A stretch of 45,204 nucleotides of DNA from Streptomyces coryli (GTDB lineage Bacteria > Actinomycetota > Actinomycetes > Streptomycetales > Streptomycetaceae): positions 1-45,204 of the forward strand of contig NZ_JAAKZV010000039.1 in NCBI RefSeq assembly GCF_011044975.1. The letters run 5' to 3'. Shown piece by piece: positions 3,513 to 20,052 of the stretch. The notes under the pieces were generated by a model, which worked only from the letters and a program-made list of their open reading frames with translations, was not told the origin of the DNA and made no database searches. The translations under genes were made by a program, and so were the position numbers. Numbering within the stretch: position 1 is the stretch's first letter; each line of letters starts with the position of its first letter.

Positions 3513-3538
3513 GACACGTGGTGCGGCCGGATGGTTGT
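3513..3538 (-). promoter_or_regulatory. ECF-sigma-like promoter of propeller gene A
   Basis: On the reverse strand, CCCACAACC is followed by 17 bases and then GTCTCA, 36 bases before the GTG start. The AAC and GTC elements are typical of ECF sigma promoters. The same arrangement and spacing precede four other propeller genes. Confidence 0.65.
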
Positions 3539-3596
3539 GGGATGAAGGAAAAAGATCCCCGGGTGGCCTACGGGTGAAGCCGGTGAAGCCGGAGAC

Positions 3597-3633
3597 GCGC
3601 GAGCCCACCGCCAGTGCAGCGGTGGGCTCGCGC
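3597..3633 (-). terminator. Intrinsic terminator after subtilase gene
   Basis: A perfect 15-bp stem (GCGCGAGCCCACCGC and its complement) encloses a 7-base loop, starting about 30 bases after the subtilase stop codon. It separates that gene from the promoter of propeller gene A. Confidence 0.8.
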
Positions 3634-3663
3634 CGGTCATCGGACCAGAGGATGCCTGCCTGC

Positions 3664-6459
3664 CTATCTGGATGCCCAGCCGAAGGCAGCGCCCGCGGCC
3701 GGAAGGCCTCCGGAGCCGGGCTTGTACAGGAAGTTGGCCGCTGCCGGAGGCTGGCATGTCACGCAGCCCGGAAACTCCTCATTTCCGGCGTTTCCGTAGA
3801 AGATCGCGGCCAGTGACCCGTAGCTACCGGGCCCGTCCGGCAGTCCGACATAGAGACGCATCGACGTCATCATCAGGTGATTGCCGATGTGCTGGTTCGC
3901 TCCCGCCGTGGCCGGCAGGCCCGACGTGCCGGCCTCGACCACCTTGTCGGCCGCGCCGGGGCGGCTCAGCAGTGGCAGGTAGCGGATGGAACCTGCATCC
4001 GTGACGGTCCCCACGTCTTCGCCCGGCATGCCGATGGCGAGCTTCAGGTTTCCGGTGTTGCTCACGGCGCCGGGATCGGTGTTCACCGCGGCGACCTTCT
4101 TACCGAACGCGTCGCCCCGCTCGTTGTCCCCGGCGACGTCCTCGGTGCTCTGGTCGATGTCGTAGAGCTGTGTGGCCTGACCCGCCGGATTGACCGTGAA
4201 GGTGGTCACGCGGCCCGCGTCCACGACCGTGCCGACGTCCTCACCCGGGGAGCCGGCGACGAGGACGGAATCCGTTCCGGTTGAAGCGGTGTCCGGACGG
4301 TACTGCACCATCGCGAGCGAGGCGCCGAAGTGGTCCCCTGGCTCCGCGCCGCCGGAGACGATGTCGCTGTCCTGATCGAATCCCCCGGCAGGGAGCGGCG
4401 CGCCGGTGCTGTTGTGCCGGAAGAGGGCGATGGTTCCCGCGCTGCTGTCGGTGGAGATGTCCTCGTAGGGCGTGCCGATCGCGAAGTGCTCAGGTGATGC
4501 GGCGACAGAGGTGCCGAAGTAGTCGTTCGCCTCGGGGTCGCCGGGAACGCCGGTGGTTCCCTGCGTAATGGCGACGCTGACAGAGCCGCGCAGGTAGAAC
4601 ACGCTGCCCGTATTGGCGAGGGAGCCCGCGTCTTCGCCCGGTACGCCGATGAGCAGGTAAGGGGAGCCGCTGATCGTGGTGCCGGCCGCGAGCGCATCCC
4701 CCATGCGGTCGCCGGACTTGTTCGAGGCCGCCAGGAGGGCGCCGGTGCCCTTGCCCTGTTCGAGGTTGAGGGCCGCCGCTCCGTCGGACAGCCCGCCGGA
4801 CGATCCGTGGACGACGGTGACCATGCCCGCGTCGGTGGCGGTGCCCAGGTCCTCGCCGGGCACGCCGACGATGAGATCGCCGCACCCGTCGCGGTTGTAG
4901 TCGGTGTCGGCCAGCACCTCGCCGAAGCCGTCGCTGGTCTCGGGGTCGCCGGGGACGGTGGCGAGTGCCTGACTGAGCTCGAAGGTGCCCTTGCCGCCGC
5001 CGTAGACGATGCGGACCACCCCGGCGTTCGCGTGGCCGCCCACCGCCGCCTCGGGATCCGAGATGGCGATGTCCCGTACACCGTCGCAGTTGAAGTCGGC
5101 GATGTTCTTCTCCGCCTGGACGGTGCCGTTGAGCGCCTGGCCGAGGTCGATGCGAGGAGTGCTGCCACCTGTGTACGTGATGGATTTGCCGGAGTCCTTC
5201 AGCAGCGACTCGAGGTTGGCGATGCCCTGGTCCGGAAATGCCTGCTGGAGTACCGCGAGAGCTCCGGCCACATGGGGTGCGGCCATGGACGTGCCGTTCT
5301 TGGAGGCGTAGCCGCCGCCGGGAACGGAGGAGGTGATGCTGGTGCCAGGGGCGAAGAGGTCAAGCAGCGGTCCCCGGTTGGTGAAGGCGGACAGCTCGTC
5401 GTCGTCCGTGGTGGCGCCGACCGCTATGGCGGAGGAGACGCAGGCGGGTGAAGTCACCGCGTTGCCGTAGCCGTTGTTGCCGGCGGCGACCACGGTGGCG
5501 ACACCGGTGGCGAGCAGGTTGTCGATCGCGGGCTTGTGCGGGGAATCGGCATCGCAGGAGGTGAAGTACTGCCCCGCCCCCAGGCTGAGGTTCGCGGCGA
5601 TGACCGGTGTGCCGGACTGCCGCAGCTGCCATACCTTTTCCAGTCCCGCCAGTTGGGCGCTGGTGAAGCTGAGCACGCAGGGTGTGGCGCCGGCACCGCA
5701 GAAGTCTTCGGAGTCGAATTTGCTGAAGACCTGGATGGCGATGATGTCGGCGCCGGGGGCCACGCCGGCTGCCGGGGCTCCGCCGGCGTTCGCGCCGTCA
5801 CCCGCGGCGACACCGGCGACATGGGTGCCGTGGTCGCACTCGGAGATGGCCGCGCAAGGACCCGTGTCCGTGTCGGCGCTCCCGGGGCCTTCCTGTGTCT
5901 CCGTGCCGTTGGGGCACAGGCTGGACGCCGAGTAATCGGGGTCGGCCGGAGAGAAACAGGCCTCGGCGACGACCCGGTCCTTGAGGAACGGGTGCTGGGT
6001 GGCGACGCCGGTGTCCAGGATGGCCACCGCGCTGCCCTTTCCTGTCTTGCCCGCTGCCCTGGCCTTGTCGCCGCCGACGAGGGGGACGCTCTGGTCGAGT
6101 GCGGGCCGTACGGGTATGTCCTCGGTGACGCTCACGACGCCGGGCTTGGCGGCCAGTTCGTCCAGGCCGCCGTCGTCGACCTTGAGCGTGACCACCGGCA
6201 GGGTGTCGAAGGACTGCAGCGTTTCACCGGCACTTGCCGCGCCGGCCAGGTCCGAGCGGTTCTCGGTGACCACGTTGACCCGGACCGTGCCGGCTTCGGC
6301 CGTCGCGTCGTACAGCTTCGGGCTGACCGGGCTGACCGGGCCGGCTGCCGCGGCGGTTGCCGCGGGGGTGCTGAGCGGCGCGGCGGCTTGAGCCGGCAGC
6401 GCGCTGAGGGCCAGCGTCGTCACCGCGGTGACGACGGCTGCCCATATGGGTCTGTTCAA
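3664..6459 (-). CDS. Secreted subtilisin-like (S8) protease with C-terminal FG-GAP propeller
   Basis: A 931-aa exported serine protease. The TTG start at 6459 has CTGGAG 5 bases upstream and opens directly into a signal peptide (NRPIWAAVVTAVTTLALSA, cleavage near PAQA-AA). An inhibitor-like prodomain (about residues 45-120) precedes the S8 domain. The triad is Asp149 (AILDTGV), His210 (DHGTHVAG) and Ser391 (GTSMAAPHVAG); the oxyanion Asn is about residue 328 (AAGNNG). From about 450 to the end are seven propeller-like repeats with GxPGED loops. Only the first two keep DxNxDG calcium loops (DFNCDGVRDI, DYNRDGCGDL). The C-terminal region is unusual for a subtilase and may tether or target the enzyme. 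It follows the RHS-PLA2 gene by 113 bases and may be partly read through from it; no separate promoter was recognised. Confidence 0.9.
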   Translation of the reverse strand: MNRPIWAAVVTAVTTLALSALPAQAAAPLSTPAATAAAAGPVSPVSPKLYDATAEAGTVRVNVVTENRSDLAGAASAGETLQSFDTLPVVTLKVDDGGLDELAAKPGVVSVTEDIPVRPALDQSVPLVGGDKARAAGKTGKGSAVAILDTGVATQHPFLKDRVVAEACFSPADPDYSASSLCPNGTETQEGPGSADTDTGPCAAISECDHGTHVAGVAAGDGANAGGAPAAGVAPGADIIAIQVFSKFDSEDFCGAGATPCVLSFTSAQLAGLEKVWQLRQSGTPVIAANLSLGAGQYFTSCDADSPHKPAIDNLLATGVATVVAAGNNGYGNAVTSPACVSSAIAVGATTDDDELSAFTNRGPLLDLFAPGTSITSSVPGGGYASKNGTSMAAPHVAGALAVLQQAFPDQGIANLESLLKDSGKSITYTGGSTPRIDLGQALNGTVQAEKNIADFNCDGVRDIAISDPEAAVGGHANAGVVRIVYGGGKGTFELSQALATVPGDPETSDGFGEVLADTDYNRDGCGDLIVGVPGEDLGTATDAGMVTVVHGSSGGLSDGAAALNLEQGKGTGALLAASNKSGDRMGDALAAGTTISGSPYLLIGVPGEDAGSLANTGSVFYLRGSVSVAITQGTTGVPGDPEANDYFGTSVAASPEHFAIGTPYEDISTDSSAGTIALFRHNSTGAPLPAGGFDQDSDIVSGGAEPGDHFGASLAMVQYRPDTASTGTDSVLVAGSPGEDVGTVVDAGRVTTFTVNPAGQATQLYDIDQSTEDVAGDNERGDAFGKKVAAVNTDPGAVSNTGNLKLAIGMPGEDVGTVTDAGSIRYLPLLSRPGAADKVVEAGTSGLPATAGANQHIGNHLMMTSMRLYVGLPDGPGSYGSLAAIFYGNAGNEEFPGCVTCQPPAAANFLYKPGSGGLPAAGAAFGWASR

Positions 6460-6494
6460 GGGGGCTCCAGAAGATTGCGGACTGGGGATTGCGA

Positions 6495-6530
6495 GGGGCC
6501 GGACGGCGAAGCGCTCCGCCATCCGGCCCC
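6495..6530 (-). terminator. Hairpin between RHS-PLA2 and subtilase genes
   Basis: Arms GGGGCCGGACGGCG and CGCCATCCGGCCCC pair with one mismatch. The hairpin lies between the RHS-PLA2 stop and the subtilase start. It may end or attenuate transcription from the upstream gene. There is no T-tract. Confidence 0.55.
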
Positions 6531-6572
6531 GGCACACCTGGGACGTCAGCCTCGAAGAGGCCGCGTTCGCGG

Positions 6573-8210
6573 TCAGGTGGCGTTGGCGCCGTTCTTCGGG
6601 TTGCCCCGGGAGACACCCTTCCGGTAGATCCACGCGATGCCGCGGCAATAGCTCTTGAACCGGTAGGCCGAGCACGTACCGTCGCGGAGCACGGTGTAGA
6701 AGACGTCGTCGACGTTCGTCTTCTTGTAGCGGGAGAGGTAATACCGGTAGTTCTTGTAGGTGTTGCCGATCAGGCCGTATCCGTAGTCATGCATGTCGCA
6801 TGCGGAACGGAAGTCGTAGCCCGAGGGCTTGTCGGGAGAGCTGGTGCAGTGGTCGTGGTTGATGCCGACCACCCACCACTTGCCGGGTGTCCTCTTCCAG
6901 TACGGCTTGTGCCAGCCGTAGTGCGCCGCCCACGCGGCGCAGCCTGACCGCCAGTAGTACAGCCAGTGCCTGGCCTTGTAGCAGTAACTCGGGTACGACT
7001 CCTGGCCGGAGACGTCATCACCGGTGAAGTCCGAGGCCGGCGGGCCGGCGACGTTCGGGTCGGTGATCCCGGACGCGCCCTGGAACTCCGACTCCGCGGC
7101 CGGGGGTGCGGGCCCGATGGGCTCGACGTTCGGGGCGGCCGAGCCCGCGGGGAAGGCCAGGTCCCATTCGCCGCTGCTCGGTGAAGTGACCTCGGATACG
7201 CGGTTGGTGGCGTCGTAGGCGTAGGCCGCGTCGGGCTCCGAGCTTTCCGAGGGGTTGGTCACCGTACGCAGCAGGCCCGCGGAGTCGTAGCCGTAGCGGG
7301 CCAGGGTCTGCGTCGTGCCGTCGGTGGTTACGGTGATCGACTTGGCCCGGCCGGCGACGTCGCCGAACGACGTTCCGGTGGCGGTCGTGGCGCTTGCGTA
7401 GCTGACCGTCAGCACCTGCTCCGGAGTCTCCCCGGCAGCGGGCTCCTTGACGGTCGCGACCCGGCCCTGGGCGTCGTAGCCGGCGGTGGTGGTGCCGTGG
7501 GCCTTGTTGCCCACCCCGGTGACCCGCCACTGGTCGCTGCCCGGGGCGGCCTGCTTCCAGGTCAAGGTGGGCTGGAGGTCCGTGGCGGGAAGCGGGTTGC
7601 CCGCGCCGTCGGTGAAGGCGTCGTCGCCCGGCTCCGTTGCCGCCAGGTCCGCGGCCAGCGTCTCGACGACGGTGGTGACCATGGCTCCGGCCGACGCGTC
7701 CCACTTGGTGGTCTCGGTGATCTTGGAGCCTTCGGCGCTCTGGTACTTGTTGACGCCGCCGCCGCCCGGGTAGGCGATGCTGCTGGTGAGGTTGTAGCGG
7801 AACGATTCGCTGGTGCCGAGGTCGGTGACCACGATCGCGCCCGACTGCTGCTGGAGCTTGCGGCTGAGCTGGCCGCCCAGGAACTCCGCCTCCCAGCCGG
7901 GGCCGAAGACGCCGAGGTCGGCCCGGGATGCGGGGGCGGACTCCGGTCTCGCGACGCCGTCGGACTGGACGACGATGCTGTGTCTTCGCCCCATGTCGGC
8001 GACGGGCACATCGCTCTCGGCGACCTCGAAGGTCTTGGTCGCGGTGAAGTACTGGCCCGGCCCTATCTGCTGGATCTCGCCCTCGGCCAGCGGTTGCTGG
8101 ATTTCGTTCTCGGCCGCCTGTGGATCGGTGGGTGCTGCCGTCGCCGACTGCTGTGGAATCAGCAGTGCCGTGGAAACTGCGACAATGACGGATAATATAG
8201 CTTTGCGCAC
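6573..8210 (-). CDS. Secreted RHS/YD-repeat protein with C-terminal phospholipase A2 domain
   Basis: A 545-aa exported protein with toxin-like architecture. The GTG start at 8210 is supported by AGGGGGG just upstream and by the signal peptide that follows (RKAILSVIVAVSTALLIPQQ, cleavage near ATA-AP). About residues 225-390 hold at least three YD repeats (AGYDAQGRVATV, YGYDSAGLLRTV, YAYDATNRVSEV). This is far too few to form a full Rhs shell. The last 110 residues match secreted prokaryotic phospholipase A2: the CDMHDYGYG motif carries the His474-Asp475 pair, Asp501 fits the second active-site Asp (NVDDVFY), and paired cysteines follow. The predicted reaction is sn-2 acyl hydrolysis of phospholipids. 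Codon 6 is TTA, so translation may need bldA tRNA. No immunity gene was recognised beside it. Confidence 0.85.
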   Translation of the reverse strand: MRKAILSVIVAVSTALLIPQQSATAAPTDPQAAENEIQQPLAEGEIQQIGPGQYFTATKTFEVAESDVPVADMGRRHSIVVQSDGVARPESAPASRADLGVFGPGWEAEFLGGQLSRKLQQQSGAIVVTDLGTSESFRYNLTSSIAYPGGGGVNKYQSAEGSKITETTKWDASAGAMVTTVVETLAADLAATEPGDDAFTDGAGNPLPATDLQPTLTWKQAAPGSDQWRVTGVGNKAHGTTTAGYDAQGRVATVKEPAAGETPEQVLTVSYASATTATGTSFGDVAGRAKSITVTTDGTTQTLARYGYDSAGLLRTVTNPSESSEPDAAYAYDATNRVSEVTSPSSGEWDLAFPAGSAAPNVEPIGPAPPAAESEFQGASGITDPNVAGPPASDFTGDDVSGQESYPSYCYKARHWLYYWRSGCAAWAAHYGWHKPYWKRTPGKWWVVGINHDHCTSSPDKPSGYDFRSACDMHDYGYGLIGNTYKNYRYYLSRYKKTNVDDVFYTVLRDGTCSAYRFKSYCRGIAWIYRKGVSRGNPKNGANAT

Positions 8211-8247
8211 GAATTCCCCCCTCATAGATGTCGATTGATCGCAGCGG

Positions 8248-8277
8248 ACCCTAAGGTGCCATTGATAACCCTGACAA
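8248..8277 (-). promoter_or_regulatory. HrdB-like promoter of the RHS-PLA2 gene
   Basis: On the reverse strand TTGTCA and TAGGGT are separated by 18 bases, close to the vegetative Streptomyces consensus. The predicted transcript would start about 30 bases before the GTG codon. Confidence 0.55.
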
Positions 8278-8449
8278 GAGTTCGGATCAGGGGTAACAGG
8301 GGCCGCTTCCTTGCGGCAGCGAACGACGGGCAATGAAACGCCGATTGGGGCCATGGTCGGCCCATGCGTCATCGAGAGGTGGTTGGAAATGAAACGCTTC
8401 GGGGTGGCTCGTTCTCACCGGCAAAGCGGAGGGTTGGCCGCCGCGCTTG

Positions 8450-8465
8450 TGTGACGCAGGTCACA
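8450..8465. promoter_or_regulatory. CRP-family binding site (perfect palindrome)
   Basis: TGTGA-N6-TCACA with extended perfect arms TGTGAC/GTCACA exactly fits the CRP consensus. It lies in the 349-base gene-free stretch between the RHS-PLA2 start (8210) and the end of propeller gene B (8560), about 170 bases upstream of the -35 box of the RHS-PLA2 promoter. The distance makes direct activation uncertain. Apart from this site, the promoter and a terminator, I see nothing else in the stretch. Confidence 0.5.
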
Positions 8466-8509
8466 TGGTTTCAAGATGTACAGCGGTTCAACTTCCGAGT
8501 GGTACGGAA

Positions 8510-8545
8510 CCGGGGCCCGGCCCTGGGGGGAGGGCCGGACCCCGG
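8510..8545 (-). terminator. Intrinsic terminator after propeller gene B
   Basis: Arms CCGGGGCCCGGCCCT and AGGGCCGGACCCCGG pair with one mismatch around a G6 loop, 14 bases after the stop codon. Confidence 0.7.
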
Positions 8546-8559
8546 GATCTGGGGTCGGC

Positions 8560-10050
8560 TCAGCCGGCGAAGTTGCCGCCGAACTGCGGGTAGCCGGTGG
8601 CGGAGACGCCCACCGACGAGGTGTAGACGGAGACCGCGCCGGTGTCGGAGATCTTGGTGCCGTCCGAGCGCAGGGCGTAGACCGCGCCGTTGCCGTTGTT
8701 CTCGCCGTAGGCGCCCACCGTCAGGTCGTCCTTGCCGTCGCCGTTGAGGTCGGCGATGTGCACGTCGGAGCCGAAGTAGTCGTACGCCTCGTTGCCGTTC
8801 GGCACGCCCGGGGTGTCCTGGCTGAAGAACTGGGCGCCCGTGCCCGTAATGCCGGAACCGTCCGCCGCGCCGTAGAGGACCGTCACCGCGCCGGTGTCGG
8901 TGACGCCGGCGAGGTTCTCCTCGGAGGCCGCGACGACGAGGTCGAGGTGGCCGTCGCCGTTGATGTCGCCGAGGTGCAGCTCGGAGCCGAAGGCGTCGCC
9001 CTTCTCGGAGGAGCCGGGGACGCCGGTGGTGTCCTGCGAATACGTGTCGGAGCCGCCGTTCGGGCCGGCCGCCGAGCCGTATGTGACGTTGACGTGGCCG
9101 CCGTCGGTGGAGCTGGGCGGTGCTGTCGCGACGTGGTCCCATTCCTGACCGGTGACGATGTCGCCGTAGCCGTCGCTGTTGAGGTCGCCGATGTCGGTGA
9201 TGACGCCCGGCTTGAGCTTCACCTGGCCGGTGGTGGTGAGGCCGGAACCGGAGCCGGGGAGGTAGTAGTTGGCGTTGTAGCCCGCCTGGCTGTCGGTCTC
9301 GAAGCCGTCCACCACCAGGTCGGCCCTGCCGTCGCCGTTCACATCGCCGGAGTGCAGGTTGAAGGCGCCGCGCTGCTCGGTGCCGCCGCTGTAGATCGGC
9401 GGCCTGACCGTGTAGTGGCCGCCCGTGGTCCCGGACGTGGCGATGCCGCCCTTGAACACGTCCAGCGTGGCGCCGGACGCGCCCACGACGAGGTCGTCCT
9501 TGCCGTCGCCGTCGTAGTCCGCGGCGTCCATGCTCCGGCCGAACCAGTCGTGCCCTGAGGGGCGCGGGTCCGTCACGGTGGTGCCGCCGGCGAGGCCGTT
9601 CGCCGAGCCCCAGAGGATCTGGACGGTGCCGCCTTCCTTGTCGGTGCCGACGTCCTCGCCGGGGGCGCCGGCGGCCAGGTCGGTGAACCCGTCGCCGTTG
9701 AAGTCGGCGGCGGTGGTGTCGCTGCCCCAGAAGTCGCCCGCCTCGGCGGTGCCGGGCACGCCGGTCGAGTTCTGGCTCAGCACGGTGCGGCGGGCGGCGG
9801 AGACGCCGGCCTGCGAGCCGTCGTTCTTCGCCCCGTACAGGACGACGATCTGCCCGGCGTCCGCCTTGCCGCCCACGTAGGCGCCCGAGGCGGAGGTGGC
9901 GAGGTCGCGGACCCCGTCGCCGTTGAAGTCGGCCATCGGCCGGAGCTCTTCGGCGGCCGAGGCGGCCGGGCTCCCGGTGAGGGCGAGCAGCCCGCCGGTG
10001 ACGGCGGCGGCCGCGGCGGTGGCCAGCGTTATACGGAAACGCTTGTGCAT
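8560..10050 (-). CDS. Secreted FG-GAP/VCBS seven-blade beta-propeller protein B
   Basis: A 496-aa exported protein. The ATG at 10050 is chosen over upstream in-frame codons because AGGAGA lies 8 bases before it and a signal peptide follows at once (HKRFRITLATAAAAAVTGG, cleavage near ASA-AE). Seven DxNxDGxxDL calcium loops are visible, from ADFNGDGVRDL to ADLNGDGKDDL, most with the GxPGxxE...FG linkers of integrin-type propellers. No enzyme domain is seen. It has its own ECF-like promoter 116 bases upstream and a terminator downstream, so it is probably monocistronic. Extracellular binding is the family-level guess. Confidence 0.9.
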   Translation of the reverse strand: MHKRFRITLATAAAAAVTGGLLALTGSPAASAAEELRPMADFNGDGVRDLATSASGAYVGGKADAGQIVVLYGAKNDGSQAGVSAARRTVLSQNSTGVPGTAEAGDFWGSDTTAADFNGDGFTDLAAGAPGEDVGTDKEGGTVQILWGSANGLAGGTTVTDPRPSGHDWFGRSMDAADYDGDGKDDLVVGASGATLDVFKGGIATSGTTGGHYTVRPPIYSGGTEQRGAFNLHSGDVNGDGRADLVVDGFETDSQAGYNANYYLPGSGSGLTTTGQVKLKPGVITDIGDLNSDGYGDIVTGQEWDHVATAPPSSTDGGHVNVTYGSAAGPNGGSDTYSQDTTGVPGSSEKGDAFGSELHLGDINGDGHLDLVVAASEENLAGVTDTGAVTVLYGAADGSGITGTGAQFFSQDTPGVPNGNEAYDYFGSDVHIADLNGDGKDDLTVGAYGENNGNGAVYALRSDGTKISDTGAVSVYTSSVGVSATGYPQFGGNFAG

Positions 10051-10165
10051 GCGGGATTCTCCTGGGCATGCGGGATGCGCGTCGGCGCGCATCACGTCCG
10101 ATGGAAGCCGAACCCCGCCTTCACCCGGATGTCGCCCGGGCTTCGCGTGAGGTTGGCGAACAGGA

Positions 10166-10191
10166 GACCTCTGGTGGGGCGCATGGGTTGT
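10166..10191 (-). promoter_or_regulatory. ECF-sigma-like promoter of propeller gene B
   Basis: The reverse strand reads CCGTACAACC, 17 bases, GTCTCC. It lies between genes B and C and leaves a leader of roughly 105 bases. Confidence 0.65.
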
Positions 10192-10236
10192 ACGGATACG
10201 GGGAAATATCTGCGTGAGTTGCCGGACAAGACGTGA

Positions 10237-10272
10237 CCCCGGTCCGCTCCCTGGGGAGAGAGCGGGCCGGGG
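10237..10272 (-). terminator. Intrinsic terminator after propeller gene C
   Basis: Arms CCCCGGTCCGCTC and GAGCGGGCCGGGG form a 13-bp stem with one G-T pair, 18 bases past the gene C stop codon. Confidence 0.75.
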
Positions 10273-10290
10273 CCTTGATGCGTCCGGGGG

Positions 10291-11718
10291 TCAGCGGCCG
10301 AAGGAGGAGCCGAAGCGCAGGCCGGCCGGTGAAGTGAAGCCGACGTCCGACGGGTTGAAGGACGTGATGCCCGAGGTCGTCAGGCCGGTGGAGGCGCCGC
10401 GGATCACCCAGACCGCGCCGGCGTCCGCCGTGGTCTTGATGTCCTCGCCGGGGGCGCCGACGAAAAGGTCGGACTTGCCGCCGCCGTTGATGTCCTTCAG
10501 CTGCACCGCCCCGCCGAAGCGGTCGCCCGCCTCGCCGACGCCCGGCACGCCGGCCGAGTCCTGGTCCAGGGCCTTGGCGCCGGTGGTGGTGATGCCGGTC
10601 GCCGAGCCCTTGAGGAGCACGACCGCGCCCGCGTCCGCCACCGTGCCGACGTCCTCGCCGGGGACGCCCGCCACCACGTCCAGGTTGCCGTCGCCGGTGA
10701 CGTCCGAGACCGACACCGCGCCGCCGAAAGCGTCGCCGGACTCGCCCGCGCCCGGGACGCCGGCCGTGTTCTGGTCGTAGGTCGTCTGCTTCCAGGCGTA
10801 CTGGCCCGCGCCGGTCGACTGGTTCTCCCACACCGTCACCGAGCCGTGCCCGTTCGTGCCCGGCTGGCCGGTGACCACGTCGGCGTCGCCGTCCTTGTCG
10901 AGGTCCCCGGCCGCGACCGAGCGCGGCGGGCCCTGGTCGGACATGACGTCGTGCCAGTAGCCGATGTCGCCGGCGCCGCCGGGGACGTAGGCGAGGAAGT
11001 CGCCCTCGCGGTGCTGGCCGGAGAGGAAGAAGGCGCCGTAGGAGCCGCGTCCGTTCTGGATGCCCACGAGGTCGTCCAGCTGGGCGTCGTCGGGGATGAA
11101 GTCGGCCTCCTCGCCGCTGACCCAGTCGGTGCCGTCGCCCTTCAGCGCCCCGTCGGAGTACCACCAGAAGTGCCGCCCGCTGACCACCTCGAGCTGCCGC
11201 GACCCCTCGTCGCCGTCGAGGTCGACGAAGGCGACGCCCTGGCCGAAGTTGCGGTCGTCCTGCGTCGGCGAGTTGAGGACGATGCCACCGTGCTTGGTCA
11301 GGCCGTTCGGGCCGCCGTAGACGATGGTGACGGAGCCGTCGGGCTTGCCGTCCACCTTTTCGTACGGGGAGCCCACGATCAGGTCCGCGTAGCCGTCCTT
11401 GTTGGCGTCCCCGGTGGTGACGCTCTCGCCGAACTGATCGCCCGCCTCGGCCGCCCCCGGCACGCCGGGCGAGGCCTGGGTGACCTTGATGGAACGGGCC
11501 GGGGAGACGCCGCTCGCGGACCCGTATGTGACGACCACGGCGCCGGTGTCCCCGTTCGCATTGGGCACGCCGATAGCCATGTCCCGGTAGCCGTCGCCGT
11601 TCAGGTCGTCGCGCAGCTTGGACTGCGCGCCGATCGCGTTGCCGGGCACGGTGAGGCTCAGCCCGGCGGCGGCCAGCGTCGCCGCCGTGATGGCGGCGGC
11701 GAGAGTGCGGGTGCGCAT
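10291..11718 (-). CDS. Secreted FG-GAP/VCBS seven-blade beta-propeller protein C
   Basis: A 475-aa exported protein. Two ATG codons, 11724 and 11718, follow CTGGAG; 11718 has the better spacing (9 bases) and is used here. The signal peptide is RTRTLAAAITAATLAAAGLS. Blade motifs run from DDLNGDGYRDM to KDINGGGKSDL. The third and fourth blades are degenerate (DLDGDEGSRQL, and a stretch with only DDLVGIQNGRG). GVPGED loops are repeated in the C-terminal half. The protein ends in RFGSSFGR, a tail type shared with other proteins of the block. An ECF-like promoter lies 43 bases upstream, just past the stop of the broken lipoprotein gene. Confidence 0.88.
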   Translation of the reverse strand: MRTRTLAAAITAATLAAAGLSLTVPGNAIGAQSKLRDDLNGDGYRDMAIGVPNANGDTGAVVVTYGSASGVSPARSIKVTQASPGVPGAAEAGDQFGESVTTGDANKDGYADLIVGSPYEKVDGKPDGSVTIVYGGPNGLTKHGGIVLNSPTQDDRNFGQGVAFVDLDGDEGSRQLEVVSGRHFWWYSDGALKGDGTDWVSGEEADFIPDDAQLDDLVGIQNGRGSYGAFFLSGQHREGDFLAYVPGGAGDIGYWHDVMSDQGPPRSVAAGDLDKDGDADVVTGQPGTNGHGSVTVWENQSTGAGQYAWKQTTYDQNTAGVPGAGESGDAFGGAVSVSDVTGDGNLDVVAGVPGEDVGTVADAGAVVLLKGSATGITTTGAKALDQDSAGVPGVGEAGDRFGGAVQLKDINGGGKSDLFVGAPGEDIKTTADAGAVWVIRGASTGLTTSGITSFNPSDVGFTSPAGLRFGSSFGR

Positions 11719-11760
11719 GTGCATCGACTCCAGAGAACGGGGACAGGTGCGTACGGGTGT

Positions 11761-11786
11761 GACAGCTGTGGCGGCCAAAGGGTTGT
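11761..11786 (-). promoter_or_regulatory. ECF-sigma-like promoter of propeller gene C
   Basis: The reverse strand reads CCGCACAACC, 17 bases, GTCACA, in the 75-base gap between the lipoprotein gene and gene C. Confidence 0.65.
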
Positions 11787-11793
11787 GCGGAGG

Positions 11794-12818
11794 CTACGGG
11801 CGGGTGAACGGCTCGTCCGTAAAGGCGGTTTCGTCCCGGCCGCGGTCGGTGACCCACACGTGCGTGGGGTTCCCGTCGAACTCCACCCACCAGCGCAGCA
11901 CGACCTCGGCCCGCCCGTCCCCGTCGTAGTCCCGGACCGCCGCGCCCCGGACCGGCTCGCGGCGTATGTGCGGCTTCAGCTTCTTGCCGTGCAGCCGGGC
12001 GGGCCCGGTCCTGACGACGGTCCGGGCCGCGTCCTCGCCGAGCCGGACCTGCTGGGTACGGGCCGAGCCGCCGAAGTACACCGTGGCGGTGCGGTGGACG
12101 CCGGCTTCCTCACTCTCGTAGCCCGGCTCGTTGTTGCGCGAGCCGTTGTCGCCGATGACGACGTCGCCGCTGCCGTCGCCGGTGGCGCGGGCCACCAGGT
12201 CGGTGGCCCGGTCGAGCGCGGGGTGCCGGAGCGGGTGAAGGGGCCGTATTCGATCCGGTACGGGGGCGTCTCGCCGATCTTGTCGTGGGGGAGGACGGCG
12301 AGCTCCGTACGGCCGTCGCCGTTGTAGTCGCCGGGGGTGGTGTAGGCCTGTGGCCACCGGGTGGGTTCGGCGCGGCGGCCGGGGCCCGCGGGGCCGCCCC
12401 AGACGACCTTGCCGTCGATCATGATGTCGGCGTAGCGGTCGCCGTCGAGGTCGGCGGTGGTGGCGGGCGACGCGGAGGTCTCGAGGGCTGCGGGGGTACC
12501 CGGCAGCGCCACCCAACGCGTCGCCGGGTCAATGCCGTTCGCGGACCCGTAGACGATCGCGAGATAGCCCTGGGCGCCCTGTCCCGACGGCACCGAGCCC
12601 ACGTACACGAGGTCCGGGTGCCCGTCGCCGTTGACGTCGTCGGGGAGCGCGCTGCCCTTGCCGCGCGGCACGGGGGCGGTGGCGGTCGGGGTGGGCACGG
12701 CGCTCTGCCGGCCCGTGGCGCGGTCCCCGCCCTCACCGCCCTCACCGCCCGCGTCGCCGCAGGCGGTGAGGAGCAGGAGGGCGGCCGTGCCGCAGCCGAT
12801 GGCCGCACGGTGGCGCAT
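11794..12818 (-). pseudogene. FG-GAP/VCBS propeller lipoprotein, frameshifted
   Basis: Two overlapping reading frames join into one protein of 341 aa if a single base is added. The first frame (from ATG 12818) has a lipoprotein signal with lipobox LTAC (Cys20), a Gly/Glu linker and three blade motifs (DVNGDGHPDL, DLDGDRYADI, DYNGDGRTEL). It then loses homology after YGPFTRSGTP. The second frame picks up with ALDRATDLVARATGDGSGDVVIG and carries two more blades, the last DYDGDGRAEV. The switch falls in a run of four C (12220-12223 on the forward strand), where five would restore the frame. Sequencing error and real mutation are both possible. Its start lies 4 bases after the stop of gene D, so translation is probably coupled. 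Confidence 0.85.
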
Positions 12819-12822
12819 GTGA

Positions 12823-14277
12823 TCAGCGGCCGAGGAAGACGCCCAGGCGGTAGTCCGCGGACTGCGCGGGCAGGCCGAGGGCGGTCGGGGTGAGGTTCTT
12901 CGACCCCGTGGCGGTGGTGCCCGACGCGCTGCCCGGCAGGGTGACGATGCGGCCGTCGCCGGAGTCCTCGCCGGTGACGCCGGCCGCGATGTCCGCCTTG
13001 CCGTCCTTGTTCAGGTCGCGCACCACCAGCCCGCCGGCGAAGTGGTCGCCCGCCTCGTCGGCGCCGGAGACGCCCGCGGTGCCCTGCGAGAAGGCCGCGG
13101 CGCCGCGCTGGGCGCCGTACAGCACCGTGGCCGAGCCGGCGTCCTCGAGCGTGCCGATGTCCTCGAACGGGGTGCCGGCGACGAGGTCGTCGTGGCCGTC
13201 ACCGTTGAGGTCGCCGGCGGCCAGCGCGGAGCCGAAGGAGTCGCCGGCCTCGGACTCGCCGGCGCCGCTACCGGGGACCCCGGCCGACTCCTGGCTGATG
13301 TCCTGCGGCGCCCGGGTCCCGGCCGGGCCCTCGGCGCCGCCGAAGGCGATGCGCACGATGCCGCCGTTGCCGGGGGTGATCGGGTACGGCGGGTTCTCGG
13401 CCTCGCTGCTGTTCATGGCGTCGCCGAACGCCAGGTCGTCGACGCCGTCGTGGTCGAAGTCGCCGGCGGCGATGGACTCGCCCGTAAAGCCGCGGGACCA
13501 CGCGTCGACCGGCTTCAGGCCGTCGGCGGTGCCGCGCAGGAACACCGTGCCGTAACCGTCGGAGCCGCCGTATGTCAGCGCCGCGTCGGGGCGGCCGTCG
13601 TCGTCGAAGTCGCCGGTGGCGAAGCTGGTGATGCGCGCGAAGTGCAGCAGGCCGTCGTCCGGGACGGGCTTGAGTTCGGACGGCGTGCTGCCGGGCGCGA
13701 ACGGCCCGGTGGAGTACGAGAGGCTGCCGCCTTCCTCGCCCGGATTCCCGGCGAGGATGTCGGCCTTGCCGTCGCCGGTGACGTCGGTGATGGCGAGGGC
13801 GGAGCCGCCGTAGCCGACGATGCCACCGCCCGGGCCCTTGACGGACGTACCGCCGGAGAGGCCCTTCGCCGAGCCCCAGAGGATGGTGAGGCGGCCGGTC
13901 CCCGCGTCCTCGTTGGAGGCGGAGACGACGAGGTCTGCGTAGCCGTCGGCGTTGAGGTCGGCGCTGGTCGACCGGGTGCCGAAGCGGTCGTTGGCCTCGG
14001 AGGAGCCGGGGACGCCGGCGCTGGACTGGCTGATCCGGTAGGCGGCGCCCGCGTTGGCGCCGCTCGCCGAGCCGGGGGTGACGGAGACGTAGCCCGCGGC
14101 GGCGTAGCCGTTCGCGGTGCCGCTGGGCACGCCGGCGACGAGGTCGCGGTAGCCGTCGCCGTTGAAGTCGAACGGCTTGGCGGGCTCGGCGCCCTGGGCG
14201 GAGCCCGGCAGGACGGTGAGGCCGGCGGCCACGAGGGCGGCGCCGGTGACGGCCGCCGCCATGGTGCGTTTACGCAT
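12823..14277 (-). CDS. Secreted FG-GAP/VCBS seven-blade beta-propeller protein D
   Basis: A 484-aa exported protein. ATG 14277 follows GGGAGA at a 4-base spacing. The signal peptide is RKRTMAAAVTGAALVAAGL, cleaved near AQG-AE. Seven calcium-loop motifs run from DFNGDGYRDL to DLNKDGKADI. Gene E, next upstream, is a close paralogue: both have PGSAQGAEPAK at the mature N-terminus, SADLNADGYADLVVSA, and an RAPQDI...ESAGVPGSG or equivalent insert in the fifth to sixth blade. Tandem duplication is likely. It appears to share an operon with the lipoprotein gene and possibly gene E. A weaker copy of the ECF-like motif lies 25 bases upstream. Confidence 0.9.
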   Translation of the reverse strand: MRKRTMAAAVTGAALVAAGLTVLPGSAQGAEPAKPFDFNGDGYRDLVAGVPSGTANGYAAAGYVSVTPGSASGANAGAAYRISQSSAGVPGSSEANDRFGTRSTSADLNADGYADLVVSASNEDAGTGRLTILWGSAKGLSGGTSVKGPGGGIVGYGGSALAITDVTGDGKADILAGNPGEEGGSLSYSTGPFAPGSTPSELKPVPDDGLLHFARITSFATGDFDDDGRPDAALTYGGSDGYGTVFLRGTADGLKPVDAWSRGFTGESIAAGDFDHDGVDDLAFGDAMNSSEAENPPYPITPGNGGIVRIAFGGAEGPAGTRAPQDISQESAGVPGSGAGESEAGDSFGSALAAGDLNGDGHDDLVAGTPFEDIGTLEDAGSATVLYGAQRGAAAFSQGTAGVSGADEAGDHFAGGLVVRDLNKDGKADIAAGVTGEDSGDGRIVTLPGSASGTTATGSKNLTPTALGLPAQSADYRLGVFLGR

Positions 14278-14301
14278 GAAATCTCCCGTATGAGCGGCAA
14301 T

Positions 14302-14326
14302 GACGCAGTGTGTGATGGGCAGTTGG
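14302..14326 (-). promoter_or_regulatory. Degenerate ECF-like promoter upstream of gene D
   Basis: The reverse strand reads CCAACT, 16 bases, GTCATT. It keeps the core CAAC and GTC but differs by one base in spacing and in the flanks, so it may be decayed or unused. Confidence 0.3.
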
Positions 14327-14335
14327 GGTCGGTCG

Positions 14336-15781
14336 TCAGCCGAGCAGGCGGCCGAAGTAGTAGGGGATGGTGTCCGCCGGCAGGCCGAGGCCCGCGGGCG
14401 TGAAGTTCTTGGAGCCGGTGGCGGTCAGTCCGTCGGCGGTGGCCGGAAGCAGCGCCGCCCGGCCGGTGTTGCCGTTCTCGCCGGGGACGCCGGCGGCGAG
14501 GTCCGCGCGGCCGTCGCCGATGTGGTCGCGCACCGCGAGGCCGTCACCGAAGCGGTCCTTGGCCTCGTTGTTGCCCGCGATCCCGGGGCTGCCCTGGTTG
14601 AAGGACTGCGCGCCGCCGTCGCCGTAGAGCAGGGTGACCGCGCCCGCGTCGGTGGCGGCGCCGATGTCCTCGCCCGGGGTGCCGATGGCGAGGTCGGCGC
14701 GGCCGTCGCCGTCGATGTCGCCCACGGCGAGCCGGTCGCCGAAGCCGTCCTGCCGCTCGGTGTCACCCGTGCCGGAGCCGGGCACGCCCGGGGTCTCCTG
14801 CGTGATGTCCTGCGGCGCCCGGGTCCCGGCCGGGCCCGCCTGGCTGCCGTAAACGACGCGCACGGTGCCGCCGTTGCCGGGCGTGACCGGGTACTCGTCC
14901 GGCTGCTCGGCCTCGGGAGTGCCGGCGGCCGCGTGGCCGTAGACGAGGTCGGCGTAGCCGTCCTTGTCGACGTCACCGGCGGCCAGCGAGCTGCCCCACG
15001 ACCCGTCGTACCAGCCGCGGTCGACCACGAGTCCGGTCGCGGTGCCGCGCAGCAGCCGGCTGCCGGTGTCCTCGATGCCGGCGTAGGTGACGGCGAGGTC
15101 GGTGCGGCCGTCGCCGTTGAAGTCGCCGGCGGCGAAGTCGCGGAGGTGGGTGAAGTGCGGCATGTCGTCGTCGATGCGGGTCAGCCCGGCCGGGGTGGTG
15201 CCGCGGGTGAAGGGCCCCTTGGCATACGACAGCGAGCCCACCTCTTCGCCGTCGTTGCCGCTGACGATGTCGGCGGTGCCGTCGCCGGTGACGTCGGCGA
15301 TCACCACGCCCACGCCGCCGTAGCCGTTGAAGCCGCCGCCGCTCGGGATCGTCGCGCCGCCGCTGAGGCCGGACTTGGCGCCCCAGAGGATGGTGAGCCG
15401 GCCCGCGTCGTCGTCCTCGCCGGCCGCGGAGACGACGAGATCGGCGTAACCGTCGGCGTTGAGGTCGGCGCTCTCGAAGGCGGCGCCGAAGCGGTCGTAC
15501 TGCTCCGAGGAGCCGGGCACGCCCGTGCTGGACTGGCTGACCCGGTAGGCCTTCCCGGCGACCGGGCCGCTCGCGCTGCCCGGCACCACGCTGACGTAGC
15601 CGGCGTATGTCGCGCCGCCGACCGTGCCCCCGGATACCCCGGCGACGAGGTCGCGGTGGCCGTCCCCGTTGAAGTCGTACGCCTTGGCCGGCTCGGCCCC
15701 CTGGGCGGAGCCCGGCAGCGTCGAGAGGCCGGCGGCCGCGAGCGCGGCGCCGGCGAGAGCGGCGATCGTGCGTCTTCGCAT
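14336..15781 (-). CDS. Secreted FG-GAP/VCBS seven-blade beta-propeller protein E
   Basis: A 481-aa exported protein, paralogue of gene D. ATG 15781 is chosen because AGGAG lies about 5 bases upstream and the signal peptide starts there (RRRTIAALAGAALAAAGLS, cleavage near AQG-AE). In-frame codons further upstream lack support. Seven blade motifs run from DFNGDGHRDL to DHIGDGRADL; the last has lost its usual Asp-Asn pattern. The 58-base gap to gene D holds no convincing terminator, so E, D and the lipoprotein may form one transcript. An ECF-like promoter lies 100 bases upstream. Confidence 0.9.
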   Translation of the reverse strand: MRRRTIAALAGAALAAAGLSTLPGSAQGAEPAKAYDFNGDGHRDLVAGVSGGTVGGATYAGYVSVVPGSASGPVAGKAYRVSQSSTGVPGSSEQYDRFGAAFESADLNADGYADLVVSAAGEDDDAGRLTILWGAKSGLSGGATIPSGGGFNGYGGVGVVIADVTGDGTADIVSGNDGEEVGSLSYAKGPFTRGTTPAGLTRIDDDMPHFTHLRDFAAGDFNGDGRTDLAVTYAGIEDTGSRLLRGTATGLVVDRGWYDGSWGSSLAAGDVDKDGYADLVYGHAAAGTPEAEQPDEYPVTPGNGGTVRVVYGSQAGPAGTRAPQDITQETPGVPGSGTGDTERQDGFGDRLAVGDIDGDGRADLAIGTPGEDIGAATDAGAVTLLYGDGGAQSFNQGSPGIAGNNEAKDRFGDGLAVRDHIGDGRADLAAGVPGENGNTGRAALLPATADGLTATGSKNFTPAGLGLPADTIPYYFGRLLG

Positions 15782-15880
15782 GAGAGCTCCTGCGGGGGAT
15801 CCGTATGAGGCCGTACGTGCCGGGAGCGGCGAGGAAAGTCTTGTGTGACGCGGGAGGCAAAACTCAGGCGTCGTGGACAT

Positions 15881-15906
15881 GACTCACGAGTGACGTCTTT
15901 GGTTGT
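15881..15906 (-). promoter_or_regulatory. ECF-sigma-like promoter of propeller gene E
   Basis: The reverse strand reads CCGTACAACC, 17 bases, GTCATG, with a leader of about 90-100 bases before gene E. Confidence 0.65.
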
Positions 15907-15907
15907 A

Positions 15908-15924
15908 CGGGCCCCGCGGGCCCG
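15908..15924 (-). terminator. Short GC-rich hairpin after propeller gene F
   Basis: Arms CGGGCCC/GGGCCCG close a 3-base loop about 50 bases past the gene F stop, right before the gene E promoter. It is a weak terminator candidate without a T-tract. Confidence 0.4.
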
Positions 15925-15927
15925 CGC

Positions 15928-15978
15928 TCAGTGCTCCAGGACCGAGCCGAAACGGATCGCGCCGTGCGGCGGGGTCAG
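15928..15978 (-). other. Relic propeller C-terminal tail out of frame with gene F
   Basis: Overlapping the gene F stop in another frame is a 16-codon stretch reading LTPPHGAIRFGSVLEH and then a stop. It resembles the family tail RFGSSFGR at the end of protein C. It may be the remnant of an older 3' end left by a frameshift or recombination. The stretch is short, so chance similarity cannot be excluded. Confidence 0.35.
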
Positions 15979-17408
15979 CCCGCCAGGTGGTAACCGAAGG
16001 ACACAACGTCCCAGTTGTGACCGACATCGTCGCCGCTGATGGCGATCGAGCCGGAGCCGGACAGGCCCGAGCCGGTGCCCTGGAGCCGCCAGACGGCGCC
16101 GCCCCCTTCCGGATGCGACTCGCCCGGCGGGATCTCGCCGATCGCGCTCGCGGCCAGGTCGGCGTCGCCGTCCCGGTCGACATCCGAGAGCAGCACCCTG
16201 GAACCGAACTTGTCGCCCTTCTCGGCTGCTCCCGGCAGGCCCGAGCTGTCCTGGGTGAAATTCCGCGCGCTCGATGTGGTGACGCCGTTCGCGGAGCCGT
16301 GGAGCACGGTGAGGGCGCCGGCGTCGACGGTGGCGCCCAGGTTCTCCTTCGGGGTGCCGATGGTGAGATCGCCGTATCCGTCGCGGTTCACGTCCCCGAT
16401 CGCCACCGCCGTACCGAAGGCGTCGCCCGCTTCCGCGGTGCCCGGGACGCCCGTGGTGGCCTGGCTGAACACCTGGCCGGTGCCGCTGAGTCCGGACGCG
16501 GCGCCGTAGCGGATGGTGACCCGTCCGCCGTTGGCGGCGGTGTTGTGCCGGTCGCCGAGGGCGATGTCCCCGTAGCCGTCCTTGTTCAGGTCACCGATGG
16601 CGGCACTGGAGCTGTCGGGGAGGGCCACCGGCGCGGCGAGTCCGTCCGTGCCGCCGGAGTAGAGCCAGGCGTGCGAGGAGCCCGCGGGGCCGTCCGTCTG
16701 GGCGATGAGGTCGGCCACCCCGTCGCCGCCTGCCTTGCCGGCGGTCAGATTGCGGAGGAAGTAGCCCTCGTCGGCCGGGAGCCGGCCGTTCCGGAACCCT
16801 CCGTTGCCGCCGTCGGCGGTGAAGGGTCCGCGGGCGATGACGATGGTGCCGGGGGCCTTGTTGATGGCCAGGTCGGTGCTGCCGTCGCCGTCGAAGTCGC
16901 CGGTGGCGAGGTAGGCACCGAGTACGGTCTCGTCGTGCTCGGCCGGGACGGGGACGGTCGTACCGGTGCGCAGTCCGGCTGAGCTGCCCCACACGATGGT
17001 GACGAGGCCCTGGCTGTTGTTGGGGCCGACGCCCTCGTAGGGAGCGCCGACGACGAGGTCCTCGTAACCGTCCTTGTTGAGGTCGGCGTTGACGAGCTCC
17101 TTGCCGAACTGGTCGCTGCCCTCCGGGAATCCGGGCATGGCGTCGCCGGCCTGGCTCACGGTCTGGTGCTTCGCCGGGTTCAGTCCGGAGGACGTGCCGT
17201 ACACGACGGATACGAATCCGGCCTCGCTCGACCCCACCGTGCCCTCGGGCACGCCGATCGCGAGATCCCGGTAGCCGTCGCCGTTGAAGTCCCCGCGCAC
17301 ACCCGATCCGGCCGCGGCTGCGGTGTCGTTGAGCGTGGCGGGCAGGGTGAGGGCGGCGGCCACGAGGGCGGCCGCGCCGGCGGCTGCCGTGAGCGTGCGT
17401 CTGAGCAT
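15975..17408 (-). CDS. Secreted FG-GAP/VCBS seven-blade beta-propeller protein F
   Basis: A 477-aa exported protein, the first gene of the reverse propeller block. ATG 17408 has AAGGAG 6 bases upstream. The signal peptide is LRRTLTAAAGAAALVAAALTL, cleaved in the following Ala-rich stretch. Seven blade positions are visible from DFNGDGYRDL to DVDRDGDADL; the fourth is degenerate (GKAGGDGVADL). The C-terminus (VSFGYHLAG) may have been altered, since a family-like tail lies just beyond in another frame. An ECF-like promoter sits 50 bases upstream. Extracellular binding or adhesion is inferred from the fold. Confidence 0.9.
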   Translation of the reverse strand: MLRRTLTAAAGAAALVAAALTLPATLNDTAAAAGSGVRGDFNGDGYRDLAIGVPEGTVGSSEAGFVSVVYGTSSGLNPAKHQTVSQAGDAMPGFPEGSDQFGKELVNADLNKDGYEDLVVGAPYEGVGPNNSQGLVTIVWGSSAGLRTGTTVPVPAEHDETVLGAYLATGDFDGDGSTDLAINKAPGTIVIARGPFTADGGNGGFRNGRLPADEGYFLRNLTAGKAGGDGVADLIAQTDGPAGSSHAWLYSGGTDGLAAPVALPDSSSAAIGDLNKDGYGDIALGDRHNTAANGGRVTIRYGAASGLSGTGQVFSQATTGVPGTAEAGDAFGTAVAIGDVNRDGYGDLTIGTPKENLGATVDAGALTVLHGSANGVTTSSARNFTQDSSGLPGAAEKGDKFGSRVLLSDVDRDGDADLAASAIGEIPPGESHPEGGGAVWRLQGTGSGLSGSGSIAISGDDVGHNWDVVSFGYHLAG

Positions 17409-17457
17409 GGGGGTCTCCTTGTCCTGACGGTGGACGTGCGGAGAGCGGCAAAGACAA

Positions 17458-17483
17458 GACCGCCGACGGGGCGTAAGGGTTGT
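17458..17483 (-). promoter_or_regulatory. ECF-sigma-like promoter of propeller gene F
   Basis: The reverse strand reads CCGCACAACC, 17 bases, GTCTTG, about 50 bases before the ATG. It is the clearest member of the shared motif set. Confidence 0.65.
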
Positions 17484-19856: not shown

Positions 19857-19900
19857 GAGGGGCTCCTCGGGTCTGGCTTTGGAGCGGCTTCCGTACGTAC

Positions 19901-19918
19901 TACTAAGCGGTAACTTAA
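19901..19918. promoter_or_regulatory. AT-rich operator candidate upstream of etfD-like gene
   Basis: TACTAAGCGGTAACTTAA is strikingly AT-rich for this genome and partly symmetric (CTAAG...CTTAA). It lies 45-62 bases upstream of the start, where a promoter would be. A TetR-type fatty-acid regulator site is conceivable; I do not recognise a specific consensus. Confidence 0.3.
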
Positions 19919-20014
19919 TGCTTCTCGGCAAGAGGTTACCCGGGTTTCCGCGCGACTCGGTAGCGACCCGACCGGTGATCTGCGTCGCCCGCCGGGCCCC
20001 ACCCCGGCGCCCGT

Positions 20015-20052
20015 GTCCACCGGTCGGTGGACCCCCGGGTTCCACCGGTCGA
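20015..20052. promoter_or_regulatory. Operator candidate upstream of the ABC exporter
   Basis: A perfect inverted repeat GTCCACCG-GT-CGGTGGAC (20015-20032) is followed 26 bases on by a second TCCACCGGTCG copy (20042-20052). It lies 60 bases or less before the ATPase start. The arrangement suggests a dimeric repressor site, but no regulator gene is adjacent. Confidence 0.45.

Follow-up and report, generated by a model that had tools for sequence, protein, structure and literature searches.

Six genes for secreted FG-GAP proteins lie on the reverse strand of the 45,204-nt stretch of DNA analysed here (positions 1–45,204, G+C content 71%, referred to as the window), and five of them have a site of the form ACAACC-N17-GTC of their own. 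Which factor reads these sites, and what else does it read? The earlier note held that they are promoters of the ECF type through which an unlinked sigma factor would control a regulon of propeller proteins. Comparative evidence supports this proposal and allowed us to identify a sigma candidate: in all likelihood, a single regulon of the ECF type uses all five sites as promoters, and they are very probably served by the Streptomyces ortholog of the TIGR02983 sigma protein encoded beside ask-asd.

Table 1. Propeller genes, promoter sites and adjoining features of the window. Scores are in bits against Pfam PF01839 for the FG-GAP proteins and matrix scores for the promoter sites; distances are counted from the last base of GTC up to the likely start codon.
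Feature	Position	Strand	Score	Remarks
Secreted FG-GAP protein A	2071..3477	-	139.5	GTG start
Promoter site A, ACAACC-N17-GTC	3513..3538	-	29.1	35 nt to GTG 3477
Secreted FG-GAP protein B	8560..10050	-	166.8	start 10050, or 10092/10095
Promoter site B, GTACAACC-N17-GTC	10166..10191	-	37.2	strict genus-wide form; best score in the window; 73 or 115 nt to ATG 10092 or 10050
Secreted FG-GAP protein C	10291..11724	-	125.7	
Promoter site C, GCACAACC-N17-GTC	11761..11786	-	29.7	36 or 42 nt to ATG 11724 or 11718
Secreted FG-GAP protein F	12823..14277	-	156.9	without own site
Proposed sixth copy, CCAACT-N16-GTC	14302..14326	-		not supported as a member
Secreted FG-GAP protein D	14336..15781	-	150.2	ATG start
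Promoter site D, GTACAACC-N17-GTC	15881..15906	-	24.3	strict genus-wide form; 99 nt to ATG 15781
Secreted FG-GAP protein E	15975..17408	-	133.7	adjoins conserved Fe-S protein gene
Promoter site E, GCACAACC-N17-GTC	17458..17483	-	35.9	49 nt to ATG 17408
Fe-S/cysteine-rich oxidoreductase-like gene	17568..20045	-		Pfam CCG and Fer4; start uncertain

The five main sites were found at the positions first given for them, on the reverse strand and with a spacer of exactly 17 nt, and the 35–115 nt that we measured between GTC and the likely starts agree with the 36–116 bases reported initially. The reverse strand of the window contains five copies of ACAACC-N17-GTC, each of them upstream of a secreted FG-GAP gene, and the forward strand contains none. 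Replacing the 17-nt spacer by spacers of 10–16 or 18–25 nt leaves 0–2 matches per strand. When the window was shuffled 200 times with its dinucleotide composition preserved, the pattern appeared 0.335 times on average and 3 times at most (both strands together), against the five copies of the native sequence. A matrix derived from 47 sites of other genomes, to which the window sites did not contribute, places exactly these five at ranks 1–5 in the 45-kb window, with scores of 24.3–37.2, the sixth-ranking position scoring 11.4. As also claimed at the outset, the sequences of the spacers differ among the five sites, which argues against a simple duplication of flanks. A sixth, weaker copy had been proposed between genes F and D. 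The quoted sequence is present, but its membership in the set did not hold: we did not count it because its -35 element deviates (CCAACT), its spacer is 16 nt long, the best matrix score there is -10.3, i.e. background rather than a matrix site, and it falls in the 58 nt separating two same-strand FG-GAP genes. Gene F begins after this gap of 58 nt and may be transcribed from site D by read-through.

The six window proteins are paralogs (39–41% identity to protein E), and all of them score above the PF01839 gathering score of 22.1 (125.7–166.8 bits). When a profile of the six was compared with the PDB, it matched integrin alpha chains (best integrin E-value 7.8e-14), the top match being the secreted esterase 9oee (2.6e-17). 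The likeness to the FG-GAP β-propellers of integrin alpha thus consists of sequence-profile matches to integrin chains, the fold being suggested here by sequence; unlike integrin alpha, the window proteins are small, secreted and bacterial, and have no other integrin domains. The Fe-S protein gene adjoining gene E is kept at 82–91% identity in 14 of 79 related loci, and at least one ACAACC-type site lies downstream of it in 12 of these 14. This gene is a conserved neighbour of the propeller cluster, outside the regulon.

The loci closest to the window in a species-level genome collection are mostly from Streptomyces. From 62 Streptomyces-type loci, a repeat-count rule selected 135 FG-GAP genes, for each of which we scanned the 430 nt ahead of the first repeat (loci L042, L060, L061, L064, L066–L070, L073–L075, L078 and L079 were left out as non-Streptomyces; window gene C escaped the rule and is absent from its list of window genes). 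The exact ACAACC-N17-GTC motif precedes 47 of the 135 genes, compared to 0–1 matches for spacers of 12–16 and 18–22 nt and one match on the opposite strand of the same regions, and it precedes none of the 20 FG-GAP genes found in 13 loci of other taxa; the motif is therefore conserved in related Streptomyces genomes. No exact site was found ahead of the remaining 88 genes, and 30 of the 62 loci have none at all. Position behind another FG-GAP gene accounts for only part of the missing sites, which concern 48 of the 64 genes lying close behind another FG-GAP gene and 40 of the other 71. Note that the FG-GAP genes without an exact site at L024, L025, L026 and L038 share GGGCAACC(A/C)-N-GTCGTAC(T/A)GGG, a sigma-E-like variant with unchanged spacing.

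The strict form, GTACAACC-N17-GTC, was then the basis of a survey of six Streptomyces genomes, in which it occurs 90 times, the reversed pattern occurring 6 times. The latter control understates chance, since TAC-AAC-C occurs in coding frames, and was replaced by the spacer, strand, taxon and by-gene controls. Twenty-nine of the 90 sites stand before an FG-GAP gene (including L225, which has two repeats only), 22 lie inside long frames and six, one per genome, precede the same sigma factor gene (five detected by script, and L192 confirmed). Subtracting L192 and L123, which looks like a cut FG-GAP gene behind a strict site, from the 34 others leaves 32 sites that are neither in frame nor before an FG-GAP or sigma gene. 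Several of these 32 precede secreted or membrane proteins, among which a secreted protein family (L197, L223, L194 and L125) and a membrane protein (L115–L117) recur. The idea of a set of exported propellers under one sigma factor thus stands but is too narrow: the regulon also includes secreted and membrane proteins that are not propellers, and the sigma gene itself. The frequency of strict sites is 1.24 per Mb in 13 genomes with a strong ortholog and 0.63 per Mb in 32 large genomes without one, and this two-fold excess makes genus-wide copy number a weak support for the regulon. One strict site (L124, genome G003) precedes a secreted protein in which the FG-GAP repeats follow an amidase-like part that resembles, in a domain assignment made by eye, a peptidoglycan-recognition amidase.

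Among 200 Streptomyces genomes, 198 contain the sigma gene met in this way. Of the two misses, G018 and G282, the former is probably due to an assembly gap, as the asd match stops 119 nt short of the contig end and the next gene would have been lost there. The protein (ortholog at L112) displays Sigma70_r2 and Sigma70_r4_2 domains (Pfam, 44.3 and 50.8 bits) and matches the NCBIfam family TIGR02983 (SigE-fam_strep) with 189.8 and 188.5 bits, for a cut-off of 141.55. The match covers residues 63–222, so that the model leaves out some 60 residues at the N-terminus, an extension in which a GGMPVIAP(M/V)P(A/S)AR segment recurs (L112:2255–2929 and orthologs); the family entry names no regulon. At L112 the sigma gene follows an aspartokinase-like gene and then an aspartate-semialdehyde-dehydrogenase-like gene, both named from their sequences. 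From this neighbourhood, we take the gene to be probably SCO3613 of S. coelicolor; SCO3614 and SCO3615 do not appear among the literature matches listed. In the accessible parts of two papers, SCO3613 figures merely in lists of sigma factors with altered expression or abundance, and we met no regulon for the candidate in the literature found.

The location of the candidate fits its absence from the 45-kb window, as the sigma gene lies about 64–107 kb from the propeller cluster in three complete chromosomes (G001, G002 and G003). The earlier statement that the window holds no sigma factor gene is borne out for this candidate, for which tblastn returned no match (best E-value 0.74); beyond it, the 20 open frames scanned against Pfam, out of 146 listed, are devoid of a sigma domain. 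Given its presence in 198 of 200 Streptomyces genomes, the candidate gene is expected in the window's own genome as well.

By its sequence, the sigma gene itself carries a promoter of the same type. In all six genomes the strict form sits 8 nt before its GTG start. We extended the comparison to 94 loci that encode this sigma factor or one of its relatives; dropping repeated promoter strings left 82 rows. Among the 65 Streptomyces-type rows, 63 have CGTACAACC, one has CGCACAACC and one (L157) has GCACAACC-N17-GTC; (T/C)ACAACC-N17-GTC was found by script 8 nt from the sigma start in 64 of the 65, the sites of L157 and of two further loci, L180 and L182, being read directly from the sequence. The constant 8 nt between GTC and the start codon suggests that the transcript of the sigma operon may be leaderless.

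In more distant relatives of the sigma factor (less than 65% identity) the promoter is kept and its -35 element is altered. Relatives with GSVKAY in region 4 mostly have GGACAAC(C/T), with one GCACAACC and one GCAACC (L184), and GTAAACC stands before the sigma gene in all six relatives with GAVKSH, including L180 and L182. We then turned to 30 further relatives, which had not been used in forming the idea of covariation and of which 27 are of the VKSH type. GTAAACC-N17-GTC precedes the sigma gene in 26 of these 27 (17 found by script and 9 more), the exception being L317, which has GGACAACC-N17-GTC. For the other region 4 types of this sample, VKGY goes with GCACAACC and VKTH with GTCAACC, and no promoter site was found before the sigma gene of L327 (VKSA). 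These counts correspond to few independent events, since several of these genomes are closely related to one another.

Does the -35 element of the targets change along with that of the sigma gene? GTAAACC-N17-GTC occurs five times in the VKSH genome G029 (Spirillospora), once before the sigma gene and twice before FG-GAP genes, and nine times in the VKSH genome G034 (Actinoallomurus), once before the sigma gene and once before an FG-GAP gene, compared to 0 and 1 occurrences in two Streptomyces genomes. Together, G029 and G034 hold 13 GTACAACC sites and about 10 FG-GAP genes, only three of which carry the GTAAACC variant, so that most FG-GAP genes there are without it. Within the scope of these two genomes only, the sequences point to a -35 switch that the sigma gene shares with part of the FG-GAP genes and that accompanies the change in region 4. 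The passage from GTACAACC/VKAY to GTAAACC/VKSH would also represent a natural specificity experiment for ECF factors. In G034, a second, larger sigma-like protein of at least 497 residues (L285) has GTAAACC-N17-GTC one nucleotide before a GTG start codon.

An overlap of 4 nt joins the sigma gene to the next one in 92 of 94 loci and in 30 of 30 further ones. The product of this next gene, the partner, begins with a short N-terminal part in which a pattern recurs (in one lineage, for instance, ELxRLLxxAVEPIRPSPD); it continues with a hydrophobic stretch, present in the seven partners checked, and a variable C-terminal part. Pairs of an ECF sigma factor and a membrane anti-sigma factor encoded in autoregulated operons are a known arrangement, and the present pair resembles them by its own promoter and by the 4-nt overlap with a gene whose product has one strong hydrophobic stretch. 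It differs from them in that the partner has no recognised anti-sigma domain (none was found in Pfam or NCBIfam) and in that its C-terminus varies by lineage (FG-GAP-like, DUF4232-like or Germane). From its place, its coupling to the sigma gene and its hydrophobic stretch, we infer that the partner is a putative anti-sigma factor. Scanning 40 partners at an E-value of 0.01 or better yielded FG-GAP_3 in seven, FG-GAP in six, DUF4232 in three and Germane in one, while the Streptomyces partner has no Pfam match. Four of the seven FG-GAP_3 matches exceed the Pfam cut-off of 26.9 (27.5–32.3), and all seven come from a lineage whose sigma factor is 53–58% identical. In nine genomes of that lineage, whose sigma relatives are 54–58% identical, no FG-GAP repeat was detected at an E-value of 1e-7, suggesting that the sigma factor is older or more widespread than the propeller regulon and that, in this lineage, the fold appears on the sensor rather than on the output side.

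AAC at -35 and GTC at -10 had been taken as hallmarks of ECF sigma factors. They do mark a promoter of the ECF type, but cannot by themselves tell one such factor from another: the AACC-N17-GTC frame is also that of S. coelicolor sigma-E, and it is the letters ahead of AACC that discriminate. This raises the possibility that sigma-E (SCO3356 type), the envelope-stress ECF factor, is the reader of the sites and that no separate factor is involved. As far as its accessible part goes, PMC6767563 provides arguments for such a reading: the sigma-E promoters of its Table 1 have an identical frame (e.g. hrdD), three of the 91 (sco1755, sco4468 and sco5039) fit ACAACC-N17-GTC by our own reading of that table, the sigma-E regulon likewise comprises envelope and secreted products, and its authors infer overlapping ECF specificities. 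However, the -35 element of sigma-E is mostly G(G/C)AAC or GGAAC in that paper, as opposed to G(T/C)ACAACC in the propeller regulon, and none of the 91 promoters of Table 1 has TACAACC at -35. Within the same accessible part, no FG-GAP product is described among the 91 targets, the term FG-GAP is absent and sco3613 does not figure in the sigma-E table; the accessible parts of PMC10771440 and PMC9205884 contain no such motif or target either. Moreover, the strict form precedes the candidate sigma gene itself in six of six genomes, and changes of the -35 element go together with changes in the candidate's region 4. As both the published -35 consensus and the published target list differ from what we observe, we hold sigma-E to be an unlikely reader of these sites. 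A less improbable alternative, though still a doubtful one, is that the propeller promoters are served by a different ECF member of the subfamily, or by several whose specificities overlap, the candidate being only one of them. Streptomyces genomes hold 45–158 first-look ECF-like candidates each, the accessible text of PMC6767563 describes such overlap for the ECF factors of S. coelicolor and Bacillus, and the second sigma-like gene of G034 also has GTAAACC-N17-GTC; against this, the candidate is the only sigma gene met behind strict sites in the six Streptomyces genomes.

Two further readings do without a sigma factor. The motif might be the operator of a DNA-binding regulator, as the roles of the sites are deduced here from sequence only. 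Yet it consists of two blocks at a fixed spacing of 17 nt, as predicted for a sigma promoter, it keeps a constant distance of 8 nt to the start codon of the sigma gene and one of its blocks covaries with sigma region 4, which makes an operator very improbable. That the shared sites are functionless remnants of a recent gene duplication is scarcely credible: the propellers are indeed paralogs grouped in one cluster, with the identities to protein E given above, but the spacers differ, both blocks persist across species and at scattered places in six genomes, and the same motif precedes an unrelated gene, that of the sigma factor.

Under the preferred reading, that of one regulon served by the ask-asd-linked sigma factor, the membrane partner would hold the sigma factor until a cue is sensed outside the membrane. 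Once released, the sigma factor would transcribe its own, probably leaderless, operon, creating a positive feedback, as well as the genes for the propellers and for further secreted proteins. Systems in which an ECF sigma factor regulates itself and is coupled to a membrane protein are known; the link to an FG-GAP regulon is, as far as we searched, new. In the open-access literature (subscription journals and supplementary tables lying outside the search), we found no regulon linking FG-GAP propellers to a sigma factor, and no regulator of the secreted FG-GAP propeller families of Streptomyces was met in the literature found. The analysis thus puts forward a candidate sigma factor, retained in almost all of the 200 Streptomyces genomes, together with its promoter, its membrane partner and a list of targets.

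The FG-GAP-like ectodomain of the partner in one lineage and the secreted propellers as output also invite the speculation, to which we attach a rather small probability, that sensor and output share one fold and one ligand. If so, the propellers would bind the ligand of the sensor, and hence buffer it, compete for it or present it; this would amount to a signalling loop spread over the whole genus Streptomyces, the gain of which is set by secreted copies of a sensor-like domain.

Other features of the window are worth recording. No tRNA, tmRNA or Rfam match was found at gathering scores in positions 1–45,204. A subtilase with FG-GAP repeats (3664–6675) lies between genes A and B, with no ACAACC-N17-GTC in the 300 nt upstream, and the RHS-repeat protein encoded at 6573–8372 ends with a prokaryotic phospholipase A2 domain. 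Finally, a YhcG/DUF1016 nuclease-like gene (30691–31770), which matches the PADLOC candidate family PDC-S02 with an E-value of 6e-126, adjoins a gene (27515–30661) whose product is a NACHT protein carrying an NNH1 domain according to Pfam and has no PADLOC match; the two possibly form a defence pair.
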